Below are positions 17,055 to 64,000 of a DNA stretch of 64,000 nucleotides, piece by piece. The position numbers and the translations under genes were made by a program. This DNA comes from Dacryopinax spathularia (lineage: Eukaryota; Basidiomycota; Dacrymycetes; Dacrymycetales; Dacrymycetaceae), in contig JBBPFI010000004.1 in the NCBI GenBank assembly GCA_037974965.1, positions 2,153,290-2,217,289 on the forward strand, in the 5' to 3' direction. The notes below the pieces were generated by a model. That model was not told where the DNA came from and searched no databases. It saw only the letters and a list, made by a program, of their open reading frames with translations. Position 1 is the stretch's first letter; every line of letters begins with the position of its first letter.

Positions 17055-17455
17055 TGATGCGGATATGCGCAGAAACGCGCGCACTACCCTAGCGCTTAGT
17101 CAGCGGAAGCAAATACGTGCTAAGTGCGCACCTAGAACTACATCCAATCTTTACTCTTGACATCCACCTTCTGACTGGTTGATACGTGCTCCTGCATGAG
17201 TCCCAGTTGATTATATTATCCTCAAGAGAAACCAGCAATCACTACCTACGGTAGAAACGGGCTTTGCCTGATCTATTAGTAGAGGACGTCCACGGGCACT
17301 GCCTGAGACGTCTCGACCTGGTCCCTTGCCATATTAGGCAATCCTTCCACTCTTACCACTTGTTGCCTTCACTACCTCGTCCTACCCAGAACTCACCGGC
17401 TATTCCGCACTTGACACACGCCTACGGGCACATCCATAACCCGCATCCTGCATCA
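17055..17455 (+). repeat. 5' LTR of the copia element
   Basis: 401 bp, TGATGC...GCATCA. By reading it is identical to 22045-22445. It would contain the element promoter and polyadenylation signals. Confidence 0.97.
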
Positions 17456-17469
17456 GGTTATGAGCCCTG
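17456..17469 (+). other. Primer-binding site, complementary to the tRNA-iMet anticodon arm
   Basis: GGTTATGAGCCCTG directly follows the LTR. Its reverse complement, CAGGGCTCATAACC, matches the anticodon stem-loop of fungal initiator tRNA-Met, not the tRNA 3' end. Drosophila copia is primed in this way by a 5' half of tRNA-iMet. The ATG inside this site (17460) is also the first codon of Gag-Pol. Confidence 0.75.
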
Positions 17470-20400
17470 ATCCTCTCGCCGACATGCCTTCTACCGACTT
17501 TAAAGATCTGAAGGTCAAGCAACTCCGTGACGATGGCTCGAACTGGACGACATGGAAGGACATCATGATGACGGCCTTCCAGCGCCGCAAGCTGATGCGT
17601 CACCTCAACGGCACTGCTCGACGGCCCTCAACCTACGTACTTGTAGATGGCAAATGGCGCGAACAACTGCCTGCTATCAGCCAACCTTCTGCAACTACGA
17701 CCATCAACCCCGCACAACCGGCACAAGCCTTGGGTGCCCCAAGCACGGCAGATTCGGGAGGTGCGAATGGAGAGGATGGAATAAGAGTTGAGAGGGGCCT
17801 AGGCAAAGAGTTGTCGGAAGAGGAGATGGAAAAGCTGGACGAGAAGATGGAGGACTATGAGGCGAACGAGGCAACCATCCGGGAAATCGTCTATCAGACG
17901 ATCAGCCCAACAACGCTCATCCAAGTTCGAGATGCAACAACGGCATACCAGCTCTGGCAGAAGATAACAGCAATGCATGAGAACAAGGGCTTCGACGTAC
18001 GCTCTACTCTGCACCGACGAATGATGGATCTCCGCTGTGGCAACAATCAGTCCCCACATGAGACCATTGCCGAACTTGCCAACTACCGTGACCGTCTAGC
18101 CCAAATGGGTGAAGCCATTGACGATGACACCTTCACCAACCGCATTCGCATTGCACACCCTTCCTACAGGGATGCAATACGCCAACTCGAGAACGCTATA
18201 CGCGCAGTCCAGCCAACAAACCCCAACACACGTCTCACCAGCGGGATGGTCATGTCCACCATCTATGACGAATACGACCGCCGCACCTCAGAGCAGGAAG
18301 CGGACAAGGTCCAGTCCAACGCTGCATTGGGAGCGGAAGTACGGGGCAAGGCAAAGGGCAAGGGTGGCGGAAGCCGCAAGAAAGGGGGAAAGCCCCAGTC
18401 AAAGTCAAACAAGCACTGTTCGAACTGCGACAGAGATGGGCATGTCTATGAAGACTGCTGGGCCCCTGGAGGACCCAAGGAGGATGACAACCCCTGGAAG
18501 AAGCGTCAAAAGCAGAAAGGCAAAACCGCTGCCTCTGCTGACAACAGCAACGGGTCCACCGTCAACAACAAGGCCCTCGCTATCACTGCACCGTCTCTCT
18601 ATGAAGAGCAGACAGCAGCTGCAGCCCAGACAGGCAAGCCGTACTATGGTGTGATCCTGGATTCTGGAGCCAGCATCCATATCTGCCCCGACCGCGCAAA
18701 GTTCATCACGTATGAACCTATTAAGGCGATCCCAATCACGTCAGCTGAAGGATCTTCATTTGCGGCAATCGGTCAAGGAGATGTTACACTCAGCCTTCCC
18801 ATGGGTAAAGGCAAGAGCATGCCCGTAACGCTGAAGAATGCCCTACACACACCTGGCACGGCATACAGCATGATCTCAGTGCCAACGCTTGACGCCAAAG
18901 GGTTCAAGACAGTAACTGAAGATGGCCTCTGTACGTTATACACGCCTAGACCTGAACGGGAGGTCATCGGCCGCATTCCTTTGAAGAACGGCCTCTATCG
19001 AGTGGCACCTGGTTACACCATCCAGCCCACCCGTACCGTAGCCACCATGGCCCAGCGTACTCTCACCATCATGGAGGCGCACAAGATCCTTGGCCATATT
19101 GGCATCTCCACCATCAAGGAGATGATCTCCACCGGCGCTACGCAAGGTCTCAACATAGACCTCAACTCCCCTGTCACACCTTGTGATGACTGCATGGCAT
19201 CCAAGGCTATTCGCCTGCCATTCCCAAAGACCAGCAAGCACACCCGTGCAACCCGTTGTGGTGGCAAGGTCAATGCAGACCTATGGGGACCACACTCGGT
19301 CACTTCTCTTGGAGGATCACGGTACATGCACGTACTCGTTGATTCCTACAGTCGTGAAGTATGGGTAGACTTCCTTGCCAAGAAGTCAGATGCCTTCAAG
19401 TCATACAAGAACTACGAGGCCTGGCTCATTATGCACCGCAACGAGAAGGGCATAGCCATCCTTGGCTCTGACCGCGGTGGTGAATACCTCTCAGACGTCT
19501 TCCGAGAGCATACGGCAAGCAAGGGCACTCTACGGCACCTCACTACGCATGACTCACCCCAATCCAATGGAGCGGCTGAAGTCATGAACCGTATCCTCAT
19601 CTCAGATATGCGTTGCCTGCTGAGATCAGCCCGCCTACCCAACTTCCTTTGGGCCGAAGCAATTCATCATGCAGCATATCTCCGCAACCGTACGACAACC
19701 TCCCACCTTCCCCGCGGCACTACACCATATGAGGTGGCCACCGGCAAGAAACCCAGCCTAACCGGCATGCTGCCTTTCGGCGCCAAAGTCTGGGTCAAGA
19801 ACCTCGAAGCCCACAAGACGGAATCGCGAGCCATTGAGGGCCACTTCCTTGGCTTTGACGATGAATCCAAGGGCTATCGTATCTACTGGCCAGCAAAGCG
19901 GTCAATCACTGTGGAACGGGACATCTACCCTACACGTGATGCGCTGCTGGATCCTCTGGTCGAACCCATGACGCTTGAGGGAGGGAACACGGATGATGAA
20001 GAAACGGTCAATCTGCCAGACTTCGACCAAGCAGACCGGCAGCCCCAGCACACTGCACCACCTACACCTCCAACAACGCCTCCTGAGCCACGTCTCACAG
20101 AAGAGCATGAGCTATCTCCCTTCACAACACCACCAGCCAGCACAAGAGCAAACTCGCCTGTGCAAGAACTGCCTCACCAACAAGACGATCACCTCCAACC
20201 ACCGGACAATAACCTTGGCCGCGGTAAACGTGTCCAGCATCAACCTGGTCACTACCGTCGACTTGCCACAGGTGCAGTTGCAGCACTGTCCGAAGATGCA
20301 CTGCTATCAATGCTCGCACCATCTGGCTTTGAAGTATCAACAGGGTATGAGGAATTTGCGCTCACTGCCAACTTCGGTGGCGAGCCAAATACACTCAATG

Positions 20401-22016
20401 AGGCACTGGCACAGCCTAATGGCGAAGGAGAGAAATGGCGTGAAGGCGTGAAAGCAGAGCTGGAGCAAATTGAGAAGCTCAACACGTGGACAGTTGTTGA
20501 AGCACCTCCTGGCACCAACATCGTTGGCAGTCGCTATGCACTCCGCATCAAGCGAGATGAGACTGGCAAGCCAGTCAAGTACAAGGCACGCCTGGTTGCA
20601 AGGGGCTTTACGCAAAGACACGGTGTTGACTACTATGACACATATGCACCGGTCATCAAGCCCACTACCCATCGGGTACTACTGTCTATGGGTGCAATAC
20701 GAGGAGATGCAATCACACAAGCAGACGTGAAGAACGCCTACCTCAACGCCCCTATGACTGAAGACGTCTACATGGAACTACCTCCACGCTATGAGGAGTT
20801 CAATCCAGACTTTGCGAAAGCAAGCAAGAGCCGTACTGGTAGACGACTGGTTGCAAAACTCAACAAAGGGCTCTACGGCACCAAGCAAGGTGGTCGTCTC
20901 TGGTATCAACATCTGAAGAAGACGTTCATCGCTCTCGGCTTCAAGGTCTGTGATGCAGACACTGCCGTCTTCTACAAGTTCAACAGTGGCAAGCACATCA
21001 TCGTTGGTGTTGCTACAGACGACTTCACCATTGTCTCCCCTGACAAGGCTCTCATTAGCCAGTTCATCAACGACATGAACAAAAGCTTTGAGCTAGTCAA
21101 CCTCGGCGATATTAACTGGTTGCTTGGGATCCACATAACCCGCAACATGACAGCACGCACTATAACGCTCAGTCAGAGGACATACCTGGAGGATATCATT
21201 GGACGCATGGGACTTGAGAATGCCTCACATGTCACCACGCCAATGGAACCAGGATCCGATCTCAGCTACGAGTCTGCTGCTCTATCGCCTGTGCTGCTCA
21301 ATGACACAGAGCATGCACACTACCGTTTTGGCCTTGGCGCACTTATGTATGCCGCCATTATGACAAGGCCCGATATCCAATATGCGGTAACATTCCTTTC
21401 ACAATTCTTGGAGAAGCCACATACCACGCACATGAAGGCTCTCACTCGTATATTCCGGTACCTGAAAGGCACTCTCAACCACTCTTTAATTCTTGGCAGT
21501 AATACTGGTAACGGCAATACCCTTATTGGCTACTCCGACTCAGACTGGGCCAGTCAAGCCCATCGTCATTCTATCTCTGGCTACACTTTCTTCATTGGCA
21601 ACGGCACTGTCTCCTGGAGCTCTAAGAAGCAGCCTATCATTGCGCTCTCTAGCACCGAAGCGGAGTACATCGCCCTCACGCATGCAAGCAAGGAGCTCAT
21701 CTGGCTTCGCAAGCTCATGCACGAGCTATACCCAGCCAACAAAGAAAATGTTGCCACCACACTCTTTTGCGACAACCAAGGTGCTATCGTCTTGTCCAAG
21801 GATGCAACTTACCATGCAAGGACGAAGCATATATCAGTCCGTTTTCACTACATTCGACAAATCGTTGATTCTGAAGAAGCAACTATCGTCTACTGCCATA
21901 CTGACAACATGGTTGCGGATACTCTCACCAAGTCACTGACTCGCGTCAAGTTCGAGAAGTTCAGGACAATGCTTGGAGTAAGGGAGGGCAATCTGGTAAG
22001 GCGTAGGGATGGTTAA
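17460..22016 (+). CDS. Copia Gag-Pol polyprotein
   Basis: 1518 codons in one frame, with no frameshift between gag and pol. The order is that of Ty1/copia. Gag covers about residues 1-310. A CCHC knuckle (CSNCDRDGHVYEDC) lies at about 320-333. Aspartic protease ILDSGASIHIC has its Asp at about 401. GAG-pre-integrase with ILGHIGIS follows. Integrase at about 600-760 shows ADLWG, GSDRGGEY and PQSNGAAEVMNR as the DDE residues. Reverse transcriptase at about 1009-1260 shows the copia signatures ARLVARGFTQ, QADVKNAYLNA and KLNKGLYGTKQ, with catalytic VATDDF at about 1185. RNase H at about 1357-1500 shows YSDSDWA, SSTEAEYIAL and DNQGAI. The RT active site reads ATDD where most copia elements have YVDD. 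No stop or frame break is seen, so the copy is probably competent. Confidence 0.95.
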   Translation: MSPDPLADMPSTDFKDLKVKQLRDDGSNWTTWKDIMMTAFQRRKLMRHLNGTARRPSTYVLVDGKWREQLPAISQPSATTTINPAQPAQALGAPSTADSGGANGEDGIRVERGLGKELSEEEMEKLDEKMEDYEANEATIREIVYQTISPTTLIQVRDATTAYQLWQKITAMHENKGFDVRSTLHRRMMDLRCGNNQSPHETIAELANYRDRLAQMGEAIDDDTFTNRIRIAHPSYRDAIRQLENAIRAVQPTNPNTRLTSGMVMSTIYDEYDRRTSEQEADKVQSNAALGAEVRGKAKGKGGGSRKKGGKPQSKSNKHCSNCDRDGHVYEDCWAPGGPKEDDNPWKKRQKQKGKTAASADNSNGSTVNNKALAITAPSLYEEQTAAAAQTGKPYYGVILDSGASIHICPDRAKFITYEPIKAIPITSAEGSSFAAIGQGDVTLSLPMGKGKSMPVTLKNALHTPGTAYSMISVPTLDAKGFKTVTEDGLCTLYTPRPEREVIGRIPLKNGLYRVAPGYTIQPTRTVATMAQRTLTIMEAHKILGHIGISTIKEMISTGATQGLNIDLNSPVTPCDDCMASKAIRLPFPKTSKHTRATRCGGKVNADLWGPHSVTSLGGSRYMHVLVDSYSREVWVDFLAKKSDAFKSYKNYEAWLIMHRNEKGIAILGSDRGGEYLSDVFREHTASKGTLRHLTTHDSPQSNGAAEVMNRILISDMRCLLRSARLPNFLWAEAIHHAAYLRNRTTTSHLPRGTTPYEVATGKKPSLTGMLPFGAKVWVKNLEAHKTESRAIEGHFLGFDDESKGYRIYWPAKRSITVERDIYPTRDALLDPLVEPMTLEGGNTDDEETVNLPDFDQADRQPQHTAPPTPPTTPPEPRLTEEHELSPFTTPPASTRANSPVQELPHQQDDHLQPPDNNLGRGKRVQHQPGHYRRLATGAVAALSEDALLSMLAPSGFEVSTGYEEFALTANFGGEPNTLNEALAQPNGEGEKWREGVKAELEQIEKLNTWTVVEAPPGTNIVGSRYALRIKRDETGKPVKYKARLVARGFTQRHGVDYYDTYAPVIKPTTHRVLLSMGAIRGDAITQADVKNAYLNAPMTEDVYMELPPRYEEFNPDFAKASKSRTGRRLVAKLNKGLYGTKQGGRLWYQHLKKTFIALGFKVCDADTAVFYKFNSGKHIIVGVATDDFTIVSPDKALISQFINDMNKSFELVNLGDINWLLGIHITRNMTARTITLSQRTYLEDIIGRMGLENASHVTTPMEPGSDLSYESAALSPVLLNDTEHAHYRFGLGALMYAAIMTRPDIQYAVTFLSQFLEKPHTTHMKALTRIFRYLKGTLNHSLILGSNTGNGNTLIGYSDSDWASQAHRHSISGYTFFIGNGTVSWSSKKQPIIALSSTEAEYIALTHASKELIWLRKLMHELYPANKENVATTLFCDNQGAIVLSKDATYHARTKHISVRFHYIRQIVDSEEATIVYCHTDNMVADTLTKSLTRVKFEKFRTMLGVREGNLVRRRDG

Positions 22017-55460: not shown

Positions 55461-55591
55461 GTTCGCTGCACAGGTTAGGGTCAGGGCTAGCTATAATCCT
55501 ACAGGGGTCTATGGGTGAGTACGGATACGGGTTGAGGGTAGGGTACGCCGAAAATGCGGCCCAAAACCTCCCTATCTCCCTATCTGTAATA

Positions 55592-55784
55592 CCCATCACC
55601 TCCCCGCAGGCGAGCTCGTGATGGGTTGGCACACATTTGAACCCATCACGAGCTCGCGCGCGACGAGGTGATGGAAAAACGCTTACGAACCCATCACCTC
55701 CTTGCGCGCGAGCTCGTGAAGGGGCTGTGCTAAGCGAAAAAGCGGCCCAACCCATCACAAGCTCGCCTGGAAGCTTGTGATGGG
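55592..55784. repeat. Four regularly spaced hairpins
   Basis: Imperfect to perfect palindromes of 33-34 bp lie at 55592-55625, 55642-55674, 55690-55723 and 55751-55784. Most begin CCCATCAC and end GTGATGGG with a GAGCTCG-like core. The fourth is a perfect 12-bp stem (CCCATCACAAGC / GCTTGTGATGGG). Starts are 50, 48 and 61 nt apart. GTTGGCAC follows the first and the last. Confidence 0.8.
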
Positions 55785-56015
55785 TTGGCACGGCTCATTC
55801 GTTAGGCGCATGCTGCAATGCTCGCAGCACATCCACCATCCCCGTAACCCCTCTCTTGCATTTCCGTTGCACCGTATCATCCTCTGCCTCTTTCCCAGGC
55901 CTCCTTGGGCCGCCTACAGCGTAATATACATATAATACATTATAATACAAGGTATCCTTTCTTTATATACAGCCTCTACGTTTATTTCGTCGCCCTCCCT
56001 TTATCTGCTCCCGAC

Positions 56016-56694
56016 TTAGACTCCACGCAGGTTCAGCTCGAGCCGGGACGAGTGCATGCTGCATGTCAGATTACGCAACATCTCCTGCGTCATCGGGGCA
56101 CGCCGTTGCTGCGCTGTCGCCCTCTTGTCTGGGCTTGCGCCCGTATTGCGCTGTGCGGGACGCTGCAACATACCTGTAGCTTCCCAGTGCGCAATGTCTG
56201 CATCCGACCAGATATGCTGTAGCCCTTCTTTGTGCTGTCCTCGTTCCCAGCAGTCCTTGATCTCCCTCCAGAGCGCTTCGATCCGGCTATGCTTGGCCAT
56301 TCGCCAGTATTCGATGCCGTTCGTTTGGCGCTGGCGTGGACCACGCTTACCCAGCATATCCTTGTGCGGGCTGAGGACGGTGTAGAAGCCCCAGGATGCG
56401 AACAGACCCCAATACAAGGCATGGTTCGCTGCGGTCATTAGCAGAGCATCCATCCCGTATCCAGTCACACTCACAGGTCTTTGTCTTCATCATCGCATCT
56501 GTCACCCCCCAATGTGTCGCAAGATCCTCCTGCTGATTGTAGAGCATGTACATCAGCCAGGCGATGAACGAGGCGGCCACGATCCCCACGTGGGTTGTCC
56601 CTGCGGCACGCTCTGGCACCAGCATTACCATGTTCTTCACCACGTTGCGTGCATCCTCAACCGTGTTGAGACGTGCGTTTGGGTTGGACGCCAT
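56016..56694 (-). CDS. 210-residue protein of unknown family in the accessory block
   Basis: Two exons (56694-56475 and 56428-56016) joined by a GTGAGT...CGCAG intron give 211 codons with the stop. The N-terminal half has a hydrophobic stretch (VGIVAASFIAWLMYMLYN) that could be a membrane segment or buried helix. The second half has SNHALYWGLFASWGFYTVL and then a charged helical part (RIEALWREIKDCWERGQHK). It ends MTQEMLRNLTCSMHSSRLEL. No homology was recognised. It lies downstream of the large gene at 57215-61395 on the same strand, with the palindrome trio in between, and may belong to the same element. Confidence 0.55.
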
Positions 56695-56845
56695 GTATCG
56701 GTATCGTGAGTGGATCTTGCAGAGCAGCGTGGCACAGAATAGGATGTACTGGTGCAGGTCGGTCTCGATCTATAGGTATATTACAGTGGGTTCGGGTTGG
56801 GTTTGCATAAATGTATGGGCTTATGCAGTGGCTTCCAGCATCTTA

Positions 56846-56954
56846 GTGGTGTCGTTCTGGCGCGAACGGCCCCACCAAGGGAAGGTGGTGTCGTTCTGGC
56901 GCGAACGGCCCCACCAAACGATGGTGGTGTCGTTCTGGCGCGAACGGCCCCACC
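56846..56954. repeat. Tandem trio of the 31-bp near-palindrome
   Basis: GTGGTGTCGTTCTGGCGCGA... through GGCCCCACC occurs at 56846-56876, 56885-56915 and 56924-56954, period 39 nt, with 8-nt spacers that differ. The word is self-complementary around GGCGCG. The same word, with small changes, lies inside three introns at 60.2, 61.4 and 61.95 kb. Confidence 0.9.
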
Positions 56955-56961
56955 AGATAAA

Positions 56962-56979
56962 CCAGGGCAATTGCCCTGG
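56962..56979. repeat. Perfect 18-bp palindrome
   Basis: CCAGGGCAATTGCCCTGG is fully self-complementary and sits 7 nt after the palindrome trio. It could be a protein-binding site or a cruciform. Confidence 0.8.
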
Positions 56980-57214
56980 CAATTGCGCTATCAGCCAACA
57001 CATCAACTGGTGACTCTCGCTTCAGAACTGCCCCACTTGGTACACTTGAAGCTCATGGTAACTTTTTTATCTGCATGTACCTATATTGTTTCAGCACATA
57101 TTCTGAAGGTATCCTGCTACATTGGCTGAACATGTGCTATGCTGACTGTTGAAGCAGCAGTATGAAGTACACCATGTTGAAGGTAGTACTTCGACAAGAA
57201 ACCGTTAATCTAAT

Positions 57215-60200
57215 TCACCACCCCGAGCCTGCAGTTGACCCAAATCCCCTGCGTCGCTTCTCAGCTGCAATCCTTGATAAGAGCTCTGCCTCGGATTGTT
57301 TGCGTTTTGATGAGCCCGAAGGAACTGCTGTGGCTTCACGAGTATCTGCCAAAGTGACAGCAGTGGCTGAAAACGAGCTTGGAGGCGGTCGAAGTAAGTT
57401 TCGTGCCTGGTACCGTTGCATTTCCTTTGTTCCCAGTAGCTCTTCCAATACCCTTGCATAGTCCGCAGCAGACCAAAGACGCTGCAGCATCAACCAATCC
57501 TCTACTAGATCATCATGGGGCTTGAATCGGTAGTTCTCTGCCTCAGGACAGCCACCTGAGAGCAAGCGAGTGTCGGTGCCAATCACTTGATAAAGACCAA
57601 GGTTGCAGAAAAGAGGTAAGCTAAGGCCTTTGTTTGCTGTAATGAAAGGTGTGAGTGGAGATATATCATTGCTATAAACAACTGTACTCACAGTGAACCT
57701 TTTCTTTGAAGTGATCCAAAGGCACCTTGGTTTTCTTGAGAATCAGATGCTCCATGTTGTGATGCCGATAAACACAATAGAGCAAAAAAATTGAAATGAT
57801 AGGACCAATTTTCGTTTGACCTTTGCGACGCTTTCGTTTGGCTGCACTTTCCATGTCATCTTTGACAACCAACCGGTTTTGTTCGATGCGGACCTGAAAG
57901 GGTGTCGTGCAGTTGGCCTTTGCAGCGGGAGTTGGTTTTTCATAGTGATAGTTAGGATGAATGCGTGCCAAAAGGGTTGCAAGAAAGATGAACAATTGAT
58001 GCACCGGGTCTTCCAAATTGTCTTCAAGCACTTTGCGAATCAATGTGAATGCCTTCGCATAATCCATGCCTTGCGCTTGAACCCCTTTGCCGCTACACAG
58101 ATTGCTGATTCCTTCACGCATCTCTTCTGACAATTGTGTACGGTGAAGTGCAATTGAGTAGAAGTTGAGATTCATCGGGTCTTGTGCAAACCATTCTTCA
58201 CCCGATTCCATGTCAAGGCGCTGTTGACGTTCAGCATGTGCTTCAAGTGCTTCTTCTGGATCCTCTGGTTCTGAATCTTCTTCATCTTCTTTGACAGTCG
58301 CTTTCCTTGGACCAGGCTCAGACTGGTAGGTTACGCGCACCCAGTGTCTTGGGTTTGGGTATGCCCCGCTGATTGCCCATGGTAGAAGATCAACATGCTC
58401 ATGAGCAAAAGCACGTTCAAGACCTTTGCGGATCCATGTGCTGAAGTCACCACTGAGTGCAGTGGCATGTTGTGGTTCCAACATTGTAATTGCAGCACGC
58501 AATGTTCGCACTGCAGGACTATGCGGTGACGTGACCGGTACCCCAGGAGGATCCAGTTCTTTTGCTTGACGCCAGAGGTTGCCAGTTATGGTGCTGATCG
58601 CAATCGTTTTTGATGCTTCTGACCATGGGAAACTGGGCTGCGCAGGTGTTCCAGTGCCCAATGCAAGCAGAATAGCACGGTGACCTTGCTTGCGGTCCCA
58701 GCCACCTGGTTCTTCACTCCACCGTTTCAATGCTTGCAGTTGCCGTTCAAACATGGCTGCCCTTGCTAGTGCTTCATCTGGTGTCAGATCACACTGACCT
58801 TCTGCCGCTCGTTTCAGCCGCCGAAGTTGCGCTGAACCCCGGGCCAAGATGTGAGGCTTGATTTCAGCCAGTAACCCCTGAATAACCTGTTTGCAGGCTA
58901 CATTGCGGCGGTTGAGAAGGGTATCTTTGGTTGTGTTGTAGAGCCGATCCATTACAAGCTGCAATGTTGCCCTCTGCACATATTCCTGCTGGAGTGTCAG
59001 TTATTGACAATTCCATATTGCATCCAGACTCACTTCAGCAGTAGTGACACCCCAATTCTTCAGAGCTGCCCAATATCCAAGAAGTGGGAAACCGGAGCCA
59101 TCACGACGTTGTGGCCACATATTGGCAGCAATCGACATGCGGCTATGGACCTTATCGCAAGGCCAGAACTCTTCAGTGGTTGTTGGGAAGCCGGTGAGGC
59201 GAAACTGCTCTCGCATGCCAGATGCAAGGTACACTTGACCATCCATCACAATTTGGTTCCCAGACTGTGCAAGGATGATGTTACGTTCACAAATGGAAAT
59301 CGCTTCCACCACAGTCCAGCGTGCAGGATGAATACCATGATTGGTCTGTTCCAGGAGATCACTCCACAGCCGCTCAAGTGTAACGTTCCATATGTAAGCC
59401 GATGAGAGCATCAATTTGGCCATATCTTTCAAGCCAACATCAGCAATAGCAGGCAGGCAAAGCATACACACATACTCCATACCGGAATGGCAATAAACCA
59501 TCCCTAAAAGCACCTGCTTGTTTGAAATAAGCCAGGGCGATTGTGCTCAATACCCCAACAATGCCTCTGTGAATGTGTCAGGATAGGGCCGTGACACGCA
59601 GTATAAACACAGTGCTTACTTGATGTTTCGCTTGGCTTGTGGGAAAAGATGCGGGAACATGACATACTCTGACTCCGATCTGACCCCTATCAAGGTGTCT
59701 CCATTCAACAATCGCTCTGCGACACGCCAATACAGTGTTTTGCGATTAATTCGGTTCATGAGCTGCCGTGCAGCCAAGCCTTTGGCACCATTTTGGCCAA
59801 AGCCCACAGCAGCTGCGGTGGTGCGGCCCAGCCGTAGATCATTCCGGTTCTGTGCGGTTGCTCGAAGCTTGATCTTGGGACAAGCGTAGATCTGATAGCT
59901 GGCTGCACGAACTGGTACTGGACTGTTACCAGCCTCTTCCCCTAGCACTTTGCCATTGATGACCTCCAAATCGGTAGCCAAAAAGTTTGGAAGCGTATCT
60001 GACTGAATGTTGCAAGCTGTTTTTGTAAATGCAAGTGGAAACATCTTGACTTTGCGCGGGAGGCCATTTCGCTGCTCGAATTGCTTCATAAACCGTTGGC
60101 TGTCTGCTACAATCCCAATGGGACGTCCTTCACTATCTGTGGCTCTGTTTGAGGAATCAGAACAGGGGTTCACTGGTGCGGCTCGGACCAGAACGGCCCC

Positions 60201-61395
60201 ACTTACTCCTGAACCACCGCAAGGGCAACAGTGAACCGTCCAATCTTCTCCATACTGTACTTTGATTCCCATAATACTTGCATTTTCTCCCAAGATTCAC
60301 GAGTGAGCTCAACCTCAACGTTTTGGCCATATTTCAGGATGACGAGAAAGGGCTCAAAATCTCCAAAATAGTTGTCAGAATCACGCCATGGTGCACGTCT
60401 GGCCCAGCTTTGATAGCGTGCGATCCAAGTTTCATTCAGCAACCGTAGCTGATGGAGATCAAGGTGCACTTCTCCCAATTCCCTGCATTTAGGTTAGCAC
60501 ATCTCTCTGATGTCACTAATCGAACCCACAGATATGATGATACACTCTCATCCATGAAGGCAAACTCATCTTCACAGAAAATCGAGTGTTGTTGCATGCT
60601 GCTGAGAGCATGACATAGAAATGTGCGAAACTGCTTCATGCGTCGCTCGAAGACAGAAGAGGTTGGCACACCCGGGCGTCTTCTCATTGCTTCATCCTTA
60701 TGCCGGAAAGCAAAGCCGCAGAGGCGATTTTGGCATATTCCAACATGAAAGTAATGCCCCATCCATGGAAAGCCAATAAATGCATGCTTGTCTCGCAATT
60801 TGCGCTTGTAGTCCTTGGGGTGAATGGTGAGCCAAACGTCATCTGATACTGTTCCATCAGGTGGTAGCGCCGCATCCCAGTTGGGCATTGCTGAGATAGC
60901 ACCAATGCAGTCCAGGAAAAGCCGTGGTTTCTGCCATTTGATGTTGGCTGCCCATTCCAATGGACGATAGACGGCTGGCTTGGTCTCGTCCAGGAAGTTG
61001 ATCTCAACTTGCTGGTTGCGTAGCCATTCACAGTCTGTAGAATGCTGATCGAACTGTTCGTTGAACCATGCCGCAGAAAGGGAGAGAGCATTGTCTTGCA
61101 TTGTGCGGGAGCCATCACCGTCCTCTCGAAAAAAGGTTGCATCGGCTTGCGTGGGAGCCTCCTCATCATCAACCAAGCGGGGATCGACTTCATCATACTC
61201 GGGCGTTGTGTCTCCGACTCCAGCTTGATGATCTTGTGAGGTACTTATCACAGCACCGTGTAACAAGTCCTCCTCAGCATCCGAGTTGTACTGCAGGTCA
61301 TCAGGAAACAACTCTGCATCCTCTTCAGGTTCGCCGTCTAGATCATCACTATGATCCTCTTCAAAGTCATTGTTCCAGCCATTGATGCTGGACAT
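57215..61395 (-). CDS. Large multi-exon gene of unknown family, about 1280 residues
   Basis: The start (ATG 61395) lies one base after the acceptor of a leader intron (61453-61397). Exons run about 61395-60550, 60495-60207, 60144-59622, 59523-59025, 58990-57690 and 57640-57215. The introns at 60206-60145, 59030-58990 and 57690-57640 join in frame; two other junctions could not be phased. The N-terminus is very acidic (DDLDGEPEEDAELFPDD). The next part has AFIGFPWMGHYFHVGICQNR and FCEDEFAFMDESVSSYLW. The middle has ATDLEVINGKVLGEEAGN and IGVRSESEYVMFPHLFPQ, later SAYIWNVTLERLWSDL. The C-terminal third has an acidic run (KEDEEDSEPEDPEEALEAH) and basic KRKRRKGQTK. No DDE, helicase or recombinase motif was recognised. 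The gene is largely open, so it may be functional. It could be the main gene of an uncharacterised element. Confidence 0.6.
60145..60206 (-). other. Intron carrying the near-palindrome (copy 1)
   Basis: GTAAGTGGGGCCGTTCTGG...CAAACAG, 62 nt, splices VVQE to ATDSEGRP in frame. Positions 60172-60203 are the near-palindrome, starting within the donor site. Confidence 0.75.
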
Positions 61396-61396
61396 T

Positions 61397-61453
61397 CTGA
61401 CATCGATATCTTGGAATCAGTGGTGCCGTTCTAGCCAGAGCGGTCCCACTTAC
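61397..61453 (-). other. Leader intron carrying the near-palindrome (copy 2)
   Basis: GTAAGTGGGACCGCTCTGG...GTCAG, 57 nt, ends one base before the ATG of the large gene. Positions 61419-61450 form the near-palindrome (AGTGGTGCCGTTCTAGCCAG and the complement-like other arm). Confidence 0.65.
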
Positions 61454-61479
61454 CTGGATACACCCCCCTGCTTAACTAA

Positions 61480-61515
61480 GCAGTTGCGAACACTGGTGCA
61501 GTTGCGAACACTGGT
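61480..61515. repeat. Two-copy tandem repeat, about 19 bp
   Basis: GCAGTTGCGAACACTGGT is repeated in direct order upstream of the large gene, in its probable leader. Confidence 0.75.
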
Positions 61516-61805
61516 GATGATGGTGGAACAGGAACAAGTTGCACTTGGGCACCCATCACTCGGATTGCATGCACTTACGCTCTTAGGTCACATGACAATC
61601 ACGTGGGGATCACGTGATCTTTGAAGAGGCTTCTCAGACAGTACACACTGCTTTGGCGGGCCGAAACCACATTTTTATTTTTTCAGGCATAAGTTGTGCT
61701 CTTAAGGAGCACAACGGCTAGCTACAAAGAATACTCAATCATCACCATGTTGGTGAATACAAACTTGCAGGCAACAGGTGGAAGATATACAGAGAGAAAG
61801 TCTTT

Positions 61806-62125
61806 CTAAACAATCATATCATCGTACGGCAACATCTCAGAAGCCTGAGTGTCGGGAATTTCCTGTGTCGAGCGTACTGTTGAAGCCTCATCATCGATGA
61901 AAGGATTGCGCTTGCGCTTTGAACCTGCTGTCATCAGCATTAGTGGGGCCGTTCTGGCCAGAACGACACCACTCACCAGGTGTACCACGTCCATCTTGAC
62001 TGTGATCCTCATTGGATGAGCTCACTGCCTCAGACTCAGATTCCGGCCCCCCATCCTCCTCAACATTCTCAGTGCTCTTGATGATCTTCTTGGCACGTTT
62101 GCCCTTTGAGGTCTTCTGCTTGATG
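61806..62125 (-). pseudogene. 3' end of a truncated gene (Lys/Ser/Glu-rich tail)
   Basis: Minus-strand coding-like sequence begins abruptly near 62125 (KQKTSKGKRAKKIIKSTENV, then EEDGGPESESEAVSSNED). It is spliced at 61976 to about 61929 by an intron almost filled by the near-palindrome, and continues GSKRKRNPFIDDEASTVRST to a stop at 61806. The tail looks like a nuclear, charged C-terminus. The upstream part of the gene is missing: beyond 62130 the sequence changes to CCCCGGCCCCC and unrelated DNA. Confidence 0.5.
61928..61976 (-). other. Intron carrying the near-palindrome (copy 3)
   Basis: GTGAGTGGTGTCGTTCTGG...GATGACAG(CAG). The near-palindrome 61942-61973 fills about two thirds of the intron. 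Either of two adjacent AG acceptors could be used. Confidence 0.6.
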
Positions 62126-63117
62126 GCCTAGCCGGTGCGGGTTGGACCCCTAGCCCCGGCCCCCGTTTTCTCGACAACTAATAACGGTATCCCATTGTAC
62201 TAACTTTGTAAGGCTAACAGGAAGTCCCGACCACGAGAAAACGGGTAGACAGCAATTGTTATGAATAGGGATCGACAGCAAGGCGTCCGTCCCGACGGTG
62301 CTTGCCACCGTCACGGGACGTTTCATATCCGGAACGTTCTCAACGCCCAAGCCCCATTACAGCGCTCATTTCGCCGCATCCCCATTTCGCAGTCTCACCA
62401 CCTCACAACCTCCCGTCCCCTCCAGGACACATACAGTACTTCGATCGAGAGAAGCCAGAGAAAACGCCAAAAACGCCATACACAACGGTATCGAGGTTGC
62501 ACTTGCAGTGACGACGCTAGGGTCCATCGCTAGGGTTCGCGGCCGCGTCGCGGGTGGGCGGTCGATCACGTAATTCGGTCACGTGAGCTCCGCCACGGTC
62601 AATGTAGATATCGGAAATGCTTGGTCGGGATGTAACAGGTCGAATAATGGGGCCCAATGTAATAAGTCGTTCAATCGGGCAGTGGCATCGGAAGACCGCG
62701 CGCGGCGTATCACGATCCATTGTCCAAGATATTGGGCCATCCTCACGGGGGATTTAACCCTGTGTAGTCGCAGTCGGCGCACGAGGACCCGTTCAGGGTT
62801 TGTCGGCTCGAATGTTAATGCTCGTATCATCCTCGTCATCGTAAGGCGGTAGTCGATGTGCGAGGGCCTCGGAATGGCATGTCGCGCCGGTTACCGACTG
62901 TTAGTGTTGGTCGGCGCACAATTGGGAAGACCCACTCAAGAGTCAGAAGGCGAGAAGAAAGAGGGCCACCGGCTGGCAGCCACAGAGCGATAGGTGAATG
63001 GTCGGGCAGCGATATACGAAATTGGGATGCAGATACGAAATTGGGATGCCGGAATATGGTGAACGATGGGATAGCAAGGTGGAGAGTAGGGAAGGAGCGA
63101 GTCGAGCCGATTCGGTT
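62126..63117. other. Junction and intergenic stretch
   Basis: Just right of the truncated gene lies a perfect inverted repeat (62162-62173 and 62234-62245). At 63016-63049 the word TACGAAATTGGGATGC is repeated in tandem. No gene was recognised. Confidence 0.45.
62162..62245. repeat. 12-bp perfect inverted repeat, 60-nt spacer
   Basis: CCCGTTTTCTCG (62162-62173) and CGAGAAAACGGG (62234-62245). It sits about 40 nt outside the point where the truncated gene stops, so it could mark an insertion boundary or be a small terminal-repeat element. Confidence 0.75.
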
Positions 63118-63975
63118 TCACTCATCCATGTCTGTCTCAGACCGAGAACCTGGCATCTGATAGTAGATGCTCGTAGCCAGATGCTTCATCGCAATGAAAC
63201 AATCCGTGAAGAAAGCACGATAACGAAGTCGTGCCATGCCGTCTTGCGAGTGCGTTATATTCCGGCAGCGCTGCACGATCGTCTTCGTCTCTCGCCACCG
63301 TCCCGTAATGACGGCCTGGCTGAGTTCTTCGGTCACAGGCACCAGATAGAAACTAGGGGTCACCCCGACCATGGTGATGCAGGGGACGTCCCACGACACC
63401 AGTGGGTCAAGACCGAGGTCCTTTCGTTTCCTATTGTTGTCCTGGAATGTGGCGATGGCTTCGGCGATGACTTGCGGCTCTGGATTTGGCAACCGAACCG
63501 TGTGCCCCTCGACGATTGGGGTGAGCGGGGCCGGTTTGTCCTCGACGACGACCAGAACGAGTCTGTTCTTGTGCATCATTGCAACGTCGGGCGAGATCAA
63601 GCTGGTTACGCCGCACATTGTGAACGCAAGCATCGGCCGACTCCGCAACATGAAGTCATCATAGGCGTAACCGAGTAGGCGCATGTTGTTCAAGACGAAG
63701 TCGTCAACCGCCGATTCGTGTCTCTCCCTCGTTATCGTCTGCAGATGGAGGAAGTACTGGTAAACGTCGTTGTCGCTCTTGTCGGTGAAATCGTCTGGGT
63801 GGTCGACAGTGAACAGTTGCGGCTTCAACGCCTCCCCTGCGCCGACCTGCCAAAACCCCCCGAAGAACTTCTCCGGTCGCACCAACTTGACGTCGATGTT
63901 GAGTCCCTTGAGCTCGTTGTCAGTCCATTCGTTAGGCGGCTTCTGACTCAGAATGATTTTCGCATTAGCGTCCAT
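63118..63975 (-). CDS. PD-(D/E)XK-like fungal protein
   Basis: A single exon of 285 residues starting at ATG 63975 (MDANAKIILSQKPPNEWTDN). The centre reads HESAVDDFVLNNMRLLGYAY, then SPDVAMMHKNRLVLVVVEDK. An acidic residue in the first helix, PD, and E-D-K on the next strand follow the PD-(D/E)XK nuclease order. Many basidiomycete genomes hold similar orphan proteins. The C-terminal part (QVIAEAIATFQDNNRKRKDLG, ITMVGVTPSFYLVPVT) continues the alpha/beta core. Whether it cuts nucleic acid is unknown. The gene is complete and undamaged. Confidence 0.6.
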   Translation of the reverse strand: MDANAKIILSQKPPNEWTDNELKGLNIDVKLVRPEKFFGGFWQVGAGEALKPQLFTVDHPDDFTDKSDNDVYQYFLHLQTITRERHESAVDDFVLNNMRLLGYAYDDFMLRSRPMLAFTMCGVTSLISPDVAMMHKNRLVLVVVEDKPAPLTPIVEGHTVRLPNPEPQVIAEAIATFQDNNRKRKDLGLDPLVSWDVPCITMVGVTPSFYLVPVTEELSQAVITGRWRETKTIVQRCRNITHSQDGMARLRYRAFFTDCFIAMKHLATSIYYQMPGSRSETDMDE

Positions 63976-64000
63976 GTCGTCGTCCTTCCGGATGCCAAGG

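Follow-up and report, generated by a model that had tools for sequence, protein, structure and literature searches.

A near-palindromic word in the introns of a subtelomeric mobile element of Dacryopinax spathularia: candidate binding site for an element-encoded protein

Our analysis concerns a 64,000-nt stretch of Dacryopinax spathularia DNA (the window), which forms the end of contig C4 (C4:2153290-2217289) in a genome of 29.2 Mb on 24 contigs. The window carries six copies of W1, a near-palindromic word with a 30-bp core, three of them in predicted introns and three in a tandem array. All W1 copies of the genome belong to one subtelomeric mobile element, E1. This is one of four families, E1-E4, each with its own palindrome (W1-W4). 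We lean towards W1 being a DNA site whose cognate protein is encoded by its subtelomeric element family. The preliminary description of this DNA had offered two readings, a binding site for an element-encoded protein and an introner or hairpin that creates its own intron. The former would be the best fit of the readings offered, because each family owns a palindrome, which in E1 and E3 occurs only in predicted non-coding parts; the introner reading did not hold.

Distribution of W1

A search of both strands with the pattern GTGGKGYCGTTCTGGNNMGAACGRCMCCAC at up to 3 mismatches, with 100 dinucleotide shuffles as control, gave 11 strand matches in the window, corresponding to six places (shuffle mean 0.00). 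The near-palindromic sites of the preliminary description are thus present at all six positions and in none of the 100 shuffles. Its coordinates for the three single copies were right, with a span one base wider on each side than the 30-bp core. As it had proposed, these copies lie inside predicted introns, in agreement with the reading frames: introns B3 and A4 interrupt coding sequence, and the third intron belongs to the 5' leader of gene B (Table 1). They also adjoin the donor: on the minus strand, each is directly preceded by GTAA or GTGA. The window holds no further copy at this threshold. The other three copies are spaced at a 39-bp period, in agreement with Tandem Repeats Finder (TRF). 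This trio does lie between two genes, as described, but not merely so: the array lies within the 3'-terminal part of the same mobile element.

Over the whole genome, with at most 3 mismatches allowed, the 30-bp core matched 63 times on the forward and 61 times on the reverse strand, and a backwards-read control gave 0. A recount on the contig ends yielded exactly 63 + 61, or 69 distinct places on 10 contigs (C2, C4, C5, C6, C8, C9, C12, C14, C17, C21). As this equals the whole-genome count, every W1 copy at this threshold sits in those ends. All 69 places fall within E1 copies, at most ~26 kb from a contig end or on a 37-kb contig. Telomere repeats are found at 6 of the 10 W1-bearing ends (C5, C8, C2 and C9 finish with them, C14 and C12 begin with them), and the ends of C4, C6, C17 and C21 are without them. 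Hence, the spread into host genes that would be expected of an introner was not found.

The 69 places comprise 43 array units and 26 single copies. According to the C5 gene models, 23 of the 26 single copies are intronic and three (C5, C14, C21) lie upstream of a TATA-like box; none was found in predicted coding sequence. The array has 3 units in the C4 copy, 4 in C2 and C9, 5 in C5, C6, C8 and C17a and 5+2 in C12, and it is split in C17b. A pattern of donor plus word was also tried as a candidate for W1 in host genes and was rejected. It gave 17 strand rows, 16 of them in E1 and one, with one mismatch, at C5:449186; we attribute this lone match to chance, because the reversed control gave 3 matches.

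The element E1

The fullest E1 copy runs from C5:2115785 to about 2124000 (blastn). Its 3' end, ATCTATAGGTATATTACAGTGGG, is precise and follows different flanks at 9 places (C5, C8, C4, C6, C12, C17a, C17b, C2, C9), with one or two bases altered further in at C2 and C9. In the window this terminus reads ATCTATAGGTATATTACAG and begins at 56768, where it is joined onto a truncated E2. The 5' end is without a defined boundary and the telomere-side end is variable: the C8 and C12 copies run directly into TTAGGG repeats. The C14 and C21 copies are broken on their 3' side and joined to internal telomere repeats. The C5, C14 and C21 copies are 100% identical over 8.1-8.2 kb (blastn), and were therefore counted as one recent event.

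Families E2 and E4 each end in a sequence of their own on the 3' side, ATCCTACAGGGG for E2 (7 places) and ATCTATACCCC for E4 (2 inspected). The junction target holds at least AT in 6/6 joins for which an uninterrupted target copy exists. E1, E2 and E4 thus combine a precise 3' terminus, different flanks and a location near chromosome ends, as do telomere-associated mobile elements. Their pieces are mostly oriented with the 3' end towards the centromere; E3 in C6 is reversed.

Internal TTAGGG blocks occur at joins of broken element copies (C14:17416-17531, C21:8652-8754, C12:1826-1935). These look like old chromosome-end fusions or healed breaks.

Words and introns within E1

In the C5 copy, seven predicted introns, one of them weak, contain W1; the word also precedes a TATA-like box and recurs in the 3'-end array. 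Each intronic word occupies most of a 48-62-nt intron, with its outer GTGG in or beside the donor, and falls between the donor and a branch-like CTRAY (7/7, by eye). The word is absent from the other predicted introns of the two element genes, A and B, namely A2, B2, B4, B5 and B6 (half-word test) and B7 (by eye). None of the eight in-gene copies lies in coding sequence, though this makes up 77% of the stretch (p ~9e-6 under uniform placement). At the sequence level, the predicted introns fit splicing by frame continuity and by the phases shared with E3. Intron A2 of E1 is 48 nt long and its frame stays open, such that its support comes mainly from the E3 counterpart, which holds a stop.

The word has a recognizable orientation. 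At position 5 the two halves differ, with T in one and G in the other, in seven of the eight in-gene copies and in every one of the five C5 array units; the copy upstream of the TATA-like box has T in both. Relative to transcription, the seven intronic copies are divided into three with the T half first and four with the G half first. This mixture speaks against a splicing signal or an introner, which should keep one orientation, whereas a DNA site is free to lie either way round.

A second, different palindrome, GCGGCTGTGCGCTTAGTAAGCGCACAGCCGC, lies just upstream of the TATA-like box of E1 (C5:2123789-2123831), and is in part similar to W4, the word of E4.

Words and introns in the sister families

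E3 occupies one locus, on C6, with relatives of A and B in the same order as in E1, of which A is diverged. Its word W3 (GTTTGAACATCCAA..TTGGATGTTCAAAC) has 8 places in the genome at up to 2 mismatches (control 0), seven in E3 and the eighth, with 2 mismatches, outside it at C4:1790840. Within E3, three copies lie in introns B3, A3 and A4 and four in the 5' region of gene A.

Seven introns are common to E1 and E3, with equal phases in 7/7 (A2 0, A3 0, A4 1, B2 2, B3 2, B4 2, B5 0). In both families, A3, A4 and B3 contain a word and A2, B2, B4 and B5 do not, an agreement of 7/7 with a chance of 1/35. Yet, the introns of each family match their own word alone. The W3 half-word has 0/15 mismatches in introns A3, A4 and B3 of E3 and 6-8 in those of E1; conversely, the W1 half-word has 0-3 mismatches in the three introns of E1 and 7-8 in those of E3.

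Intron B3 is also present in E2 (position and phase by eye), where it holds no word; the match of E2 introns B3 and B2 to any of the words was no better than that of shuffles. The E2 word W2, CCCATCACGAGCTCGC plus its mirror, gave 64+64 strand matches genome-wide (control 0) and, among the matches listed, flanks gene B upstream and downstream in the three loci compared (C1, C17, C6). The E4 word W4 gave 14+14 strand matches (control 0). It lies downstream of a gene B match in five loci (C2, C5, C14, C17, C18) and upstream of one on C22; on C9 no B match is nearby among the matches listed. Tandem arrays of the words occur in E1, E2 and E4.

These comparisons bear on the proposal that the word is an introner or introner-like element (ILE), whose copies insert into genes and thereby create introns. 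We regard this as very improbable and have rejected it. The word does fill most of its intron, with the outer GTGG at the donor, and intron A1, present in E1, appears absent from E3, which would allow one intron gain. In addition, parallel gain at old intron positions is among the findings described for fungal ILEs (PMC4457414). However, host genes lack any copy at up to 3 mismatches, the orientation is mixed, and intron B3 recurs in E2 and E3, alike in position and phase, with no word in the former and another word in the latter. These three observations also leave the preliminary suggestion that the word creates its own intron, whether as introner or as hairpin, without support. Known introners resemble W1 as near-identical sequences of inverted-repeat shape in several short introns, as far as described in the sources (PMC9860276, PMC4457414), but W1 is not dispersed over host genes and in at least one case its intron exists without it.

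Another explanation might be that the words are host-bound or structural sites, read at chromosome ends by a host factor such as an insulator, heterochromatin, replication or recombination protein. This would suit the location of all W1 copies near contig ends, and the near-identical ends of C5, C14 and C21 indicate recent exchange. However, one would not expect a single host factor to require four unrelated words, and in the loci compared each word goes with one element family; we consider this explanation improbable.

RNA pairing

The word might instead act in the pre-mRNA as an RNA hairpin, which folds the short intron such that the donor meets the branch site, or which regulates splicing of the element genes. 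In line with this, the word stands between the donor and the branch-like site in each of the seven E1 introns that contain it. Likewise, the E1 word introns A4, A3, B3 and BU have predicted folds of -19.3, -16.6, -16.2 and -15.5 kcal/mol, more stable than the five word-free introns tested (-6.2 to -13.0 kcal/mol), and the E3 word introns fold too (-12.1 to -34.1 kcal/mol). By contrast, the E1 word introns A1 (-9.2 kcal/mol) and U2 (-8.5 kcal/mol) fold no better than the word-free ones.

Mismatches between the arms point in the same direction as A1 and U2. Over eight E1 copies there are 5 G-U, 7 A-C and 19 other mismatches; there is no G-U excess and therefore no sign of maintained RNA pairing in E1. 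In the W3 arms, G-U mismatches slightly outnumber A-C mismatches, 8 against 5 over eight stretches of which one is misregistered, or 4 against 2 without that one, and these counts are too small to judge RNA pairing in E3. Moreover, a selected hairpin would hardly keep the T/G mismatch at position 5 that is found in most copies, and some words lie outside introns, in front of the TATA-like box and within the 3' array. An RNA hairpin therefore seems unlikely to us.

Genes A and B

In the C5 copy, gene B is predicted to encode 1287 aa and gene A 810 aa. Intact E1 copies show coding sequence under codon-position constraint. Between C4 and C5, changes at codon positions 1, 2 and 3 number 13/1378, 10/1379 and 63/1378, and between C8 and C5 they number 19, 3 and 38 of 1682; in the relics C17b and C9 the pattern is not clear. 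Of the two proteins, A diverges faster (23% over 274 aa, compared with 45% over 574 aa in B).

No reverse transcriptase was found in the A and B pieces scanned, and the same library detected RVT_2 in the copia frame of the window. Profile searches found no transposase domain in A or B. For relatives of gene B, peptide patterns matched nothing in viral contigs, and a search of plasmids gave no match. Several weak candidates were not credited: MEC3 (E=0.024), a 16-residue PHROG match for A (E=0.0019), PurE for the E2 gene B (E=0.018), and DUF3179 for the E4 gene B (E=0.0096, under its cut-off). A ParB-like identity of protein A, suggested by a shared NGHHR stretch, was also set aside, as there was no Pfam or NCBIfam match and no ParB match in PDB.

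A 442-aa exon of B has 44 genome matches at E<=1, the weakest of which (E=0.98) is probably chance. On contigs with known ends the matches lie mostly near those ends; the one at C6:1791756 is about 134 kb from the end. The exon search with gene A gave 5 matches, all of them E1 copies.

A proposed site for an element-encoded protein

The comparisons of E1 copies give a mixed picture of constraint on the words. C4 and C5 differ at 1/180 word positions vs 45/1044 other non-coding positions (p=0.0096).

Several results weigh against a binding site. The pooled C4 difference draws on the array units, which are possibly homogenised, and for the intronic words alone the difference is 1/90 vs 13/331 (p=0.32). 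Between C8 and C5 there is no constraint (4/270 in words vs 16/1082 in other non-coding sequence, p=1.0), and in the relic copies C17b and C9 the words decay like their surroundings (7/150 and 5/120). The comparison of E1 and E3 is a small sample of seven shared introns, with E3 drawn from a single locus. A and B pieces (exons or single frames) had no credible match in Pfam, NCBIfam, PHROGs or PDB sequences, so these searches did not identify the binding protein, and single-sequence structure models of A and B were poor (mean predicted local distance difference test score, pLDDT, 42.7 and 43.3). Furthermore, gene A was found only in E1 and, diverged, in E3; hence, an A-type reader cannot be claimed for the words of E2 and E4.

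Some of these results would suit the alternative that the words are passive debris without function, which gene conversion or slippage has spread and which only non-coding DNA tolerates. Arrays differ in their number of units, those of relics decay, and the words of C8 are without constraint. Yet, debris leaves unexplained why E1 and E3 have unrelated words in three shared introns and none in the four others, and why a dyad shape of ~30 bp is maintained. Overall, we find this alternative quite improbable.

If the words are binding sites, a dimeric protein encoded by the element would bind them, most likely the fast-changing protein A; A is preferred as reader because it diverges faster than B. 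The bound protein might keep the element active in silent subtelomeric chromatin, or unite its ends for mobility. A shift in the specificity of the protein would then be followed by a shift of all sites of that element. Sites would persist only where they leave the coding sequence unbroken, hence in introns, leaders and termini. We conclude that the introns are probably simply places where sites sit without harm to the genes.

More speculatively, the families might represent a new fungal element superfamily with no known transposase domain, with a fixed 3' end that attaches to chromosome ends, and in which the specificity of a fast-changing protein and that of a dozen palindromes, placed in introns, at the promoter and at the termini, shift together. 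Such a system could correspond to VANC anti-silencing, here based in introns, or serve as a code by which competing telomere elements recognise themselves. We put this forward tentatively, as a doubtful possibility.

If the binding-site reading is correct, a mobile element can shelter protein-binding sites in its own introns, and all of these sites can change together as their reader changes. Several families within one genome, two of which have unrelated words in shared introns, would offer a natural experiment on the co-evolution of DNA-binding specificity. They would also bear on the question of how a selfish element remains active when the chromosome ends around it are silent. The finding would further caution against taking recurrent intronic palindromes for introners.

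Comparison with known systems

The closest match in behaviour appears to be the VANDAL/VANC system of Arabidopsis, in which we do not claim membership for these elements. VANDAL families are described as having a private short motif in non-coding DNA, including VANC21 and VANB21 introns, as tandem repeats; it also lies upstream of a third element gene, and related families differ in motif (PMC5735166, PMC10398659). The reader protein VANC has variable regions and changed targets (PMC5735166, PMC10398659). In our comparison, the likeness extends to family-private words in introns (E1, E3) and to arrays (E1, E2, E4). There are also differences. The VANC21 motif is 9 bp long, and the available text does not contain the term 'palindrom', whereas the words described here are ~30-bp dyads. 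VANDALs have a known transposase, whereas the fungal A and B genes are without a known domain, and binding and anti-silencing by their products are putative. In a search of Pfam and NCBIfam, in which no VANC sequence itself was compared, the A and B pieces gave no credible match that would indicate VANC or Mutator-like homology.

CACTA (En/Spm) elements have arrays of a family-specific site, bound by TnpA, near the element end, and E1 likewise has an array of a family-specific site near its end. The known TnpA sites, however, are subterminal and are not known to be seated in introns. In addition, E1, E2 and E4 showed no CACTA terminus, and no transposase domain was found in A or B.

MoTeR and HeT-A/TART are telomere-associated retrotransposons, elements found at chromosome ends. 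E1, E2 and E4 resemble such elements in that their 3' ends are mostly centromere-ward and several are truncated on the telomere side, but the A and B pieces scanned contain neither a reverse transcriptase nor another known domain. FoTeR, as far as its source describes it, is located at chromosome ends (PMC12857005), as are E1, E2 and E4. A search of one open-access literature collection found no comparable fungal system.

Feature coordinates and neighbouring sequences

Table 1. Coordinates of elements, genes, introns and words. Positions without a contig refer to the window; C5 positions refer to the fullest E1 copy.
Feature	Position	Strand	Basis
E1, cut off on telomere side	56764-62129	-	blastn vs C5, C8, C14, C21 copies; terminus shared after different flanks
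Truncated E2 with W2 palindromes near 55610-55784	55496-56770	-	
Gene B, 7 predicted coding exons, no recognised domain	57215-61395	-	reading frames (models from C5 copy), codon-position pattern
Gene A, 3' part	61806-62129	-	blastn, exon search, frames
Gene A, complete	C5:2120899-2123532		
Intron B3, predicted, 62 nt, phase 2	60145-60206	-	frame continuity; same position and phase in E3, likewise in E2 by eye
Gene B 5'-leader intron, predicted, 57 nt	61397-61453	-	GTAAGT donor, CTGAT branch-like site, CAG 1 base before ATG; by eye
Intron A4, predicted, 52 nt, phase 1	61925-61976	-	frame continuity; same-phase E3 counterpart
W1 array unit 1	56846-56875	.	pattern search and TRF
W1 array unit 2	56885-56914	.	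pattern search and TRF
W1 array unit 3	56924-56953	.	pattern search and TRF
W1 in intron B3	60173-60202	.	pattern search
W1 in leader intron of gene B	61420-61449	.	pattern search
W1 in intron A4	61943-61972	.	pattern search
W1 upstream of TATATAA	C5:2123844		
W1 in 5' leader intron, weak donor GTGCGG	C5:2123644		
W1 in 5' leader intron	C5:2123550		
W1 in intron A1	C5:2123015		
W1 in intron A3	C5:2122114		
W1 in intron A4	C5:2121036		
W1 in leader intron of gene B	C5:2120513		
W1 in intron B3	C5:2119272		
W1 array, five units	C5:2115866-2116051		

The host genome has introns of ~50 nt and TTAGGG telomeres, which together with the genes named below look fungal, perhaps basidiomycete. On the telomere side of E1 lies a satellite of ~57-codon units (C5:2124219-2127977, C14:5491-9249, C21:2-583). 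It forms a single open frame on the opposite strand to the genes, with 1253 aa in C5 and C14, and is cut by the contig start in C21.

Past the broken end of E1, window positions 62130-64000 contain a 293-aa open frame with no Pfam match, and this segment recurs beside element remains at C18:763491-764498. Elsewhere, the window holds a stop-free Ty1/copia-like polyprotein frame of 1533 aa (17415-22016), a sugar transporter, a tannase-type gene and a HAM1-like gene.

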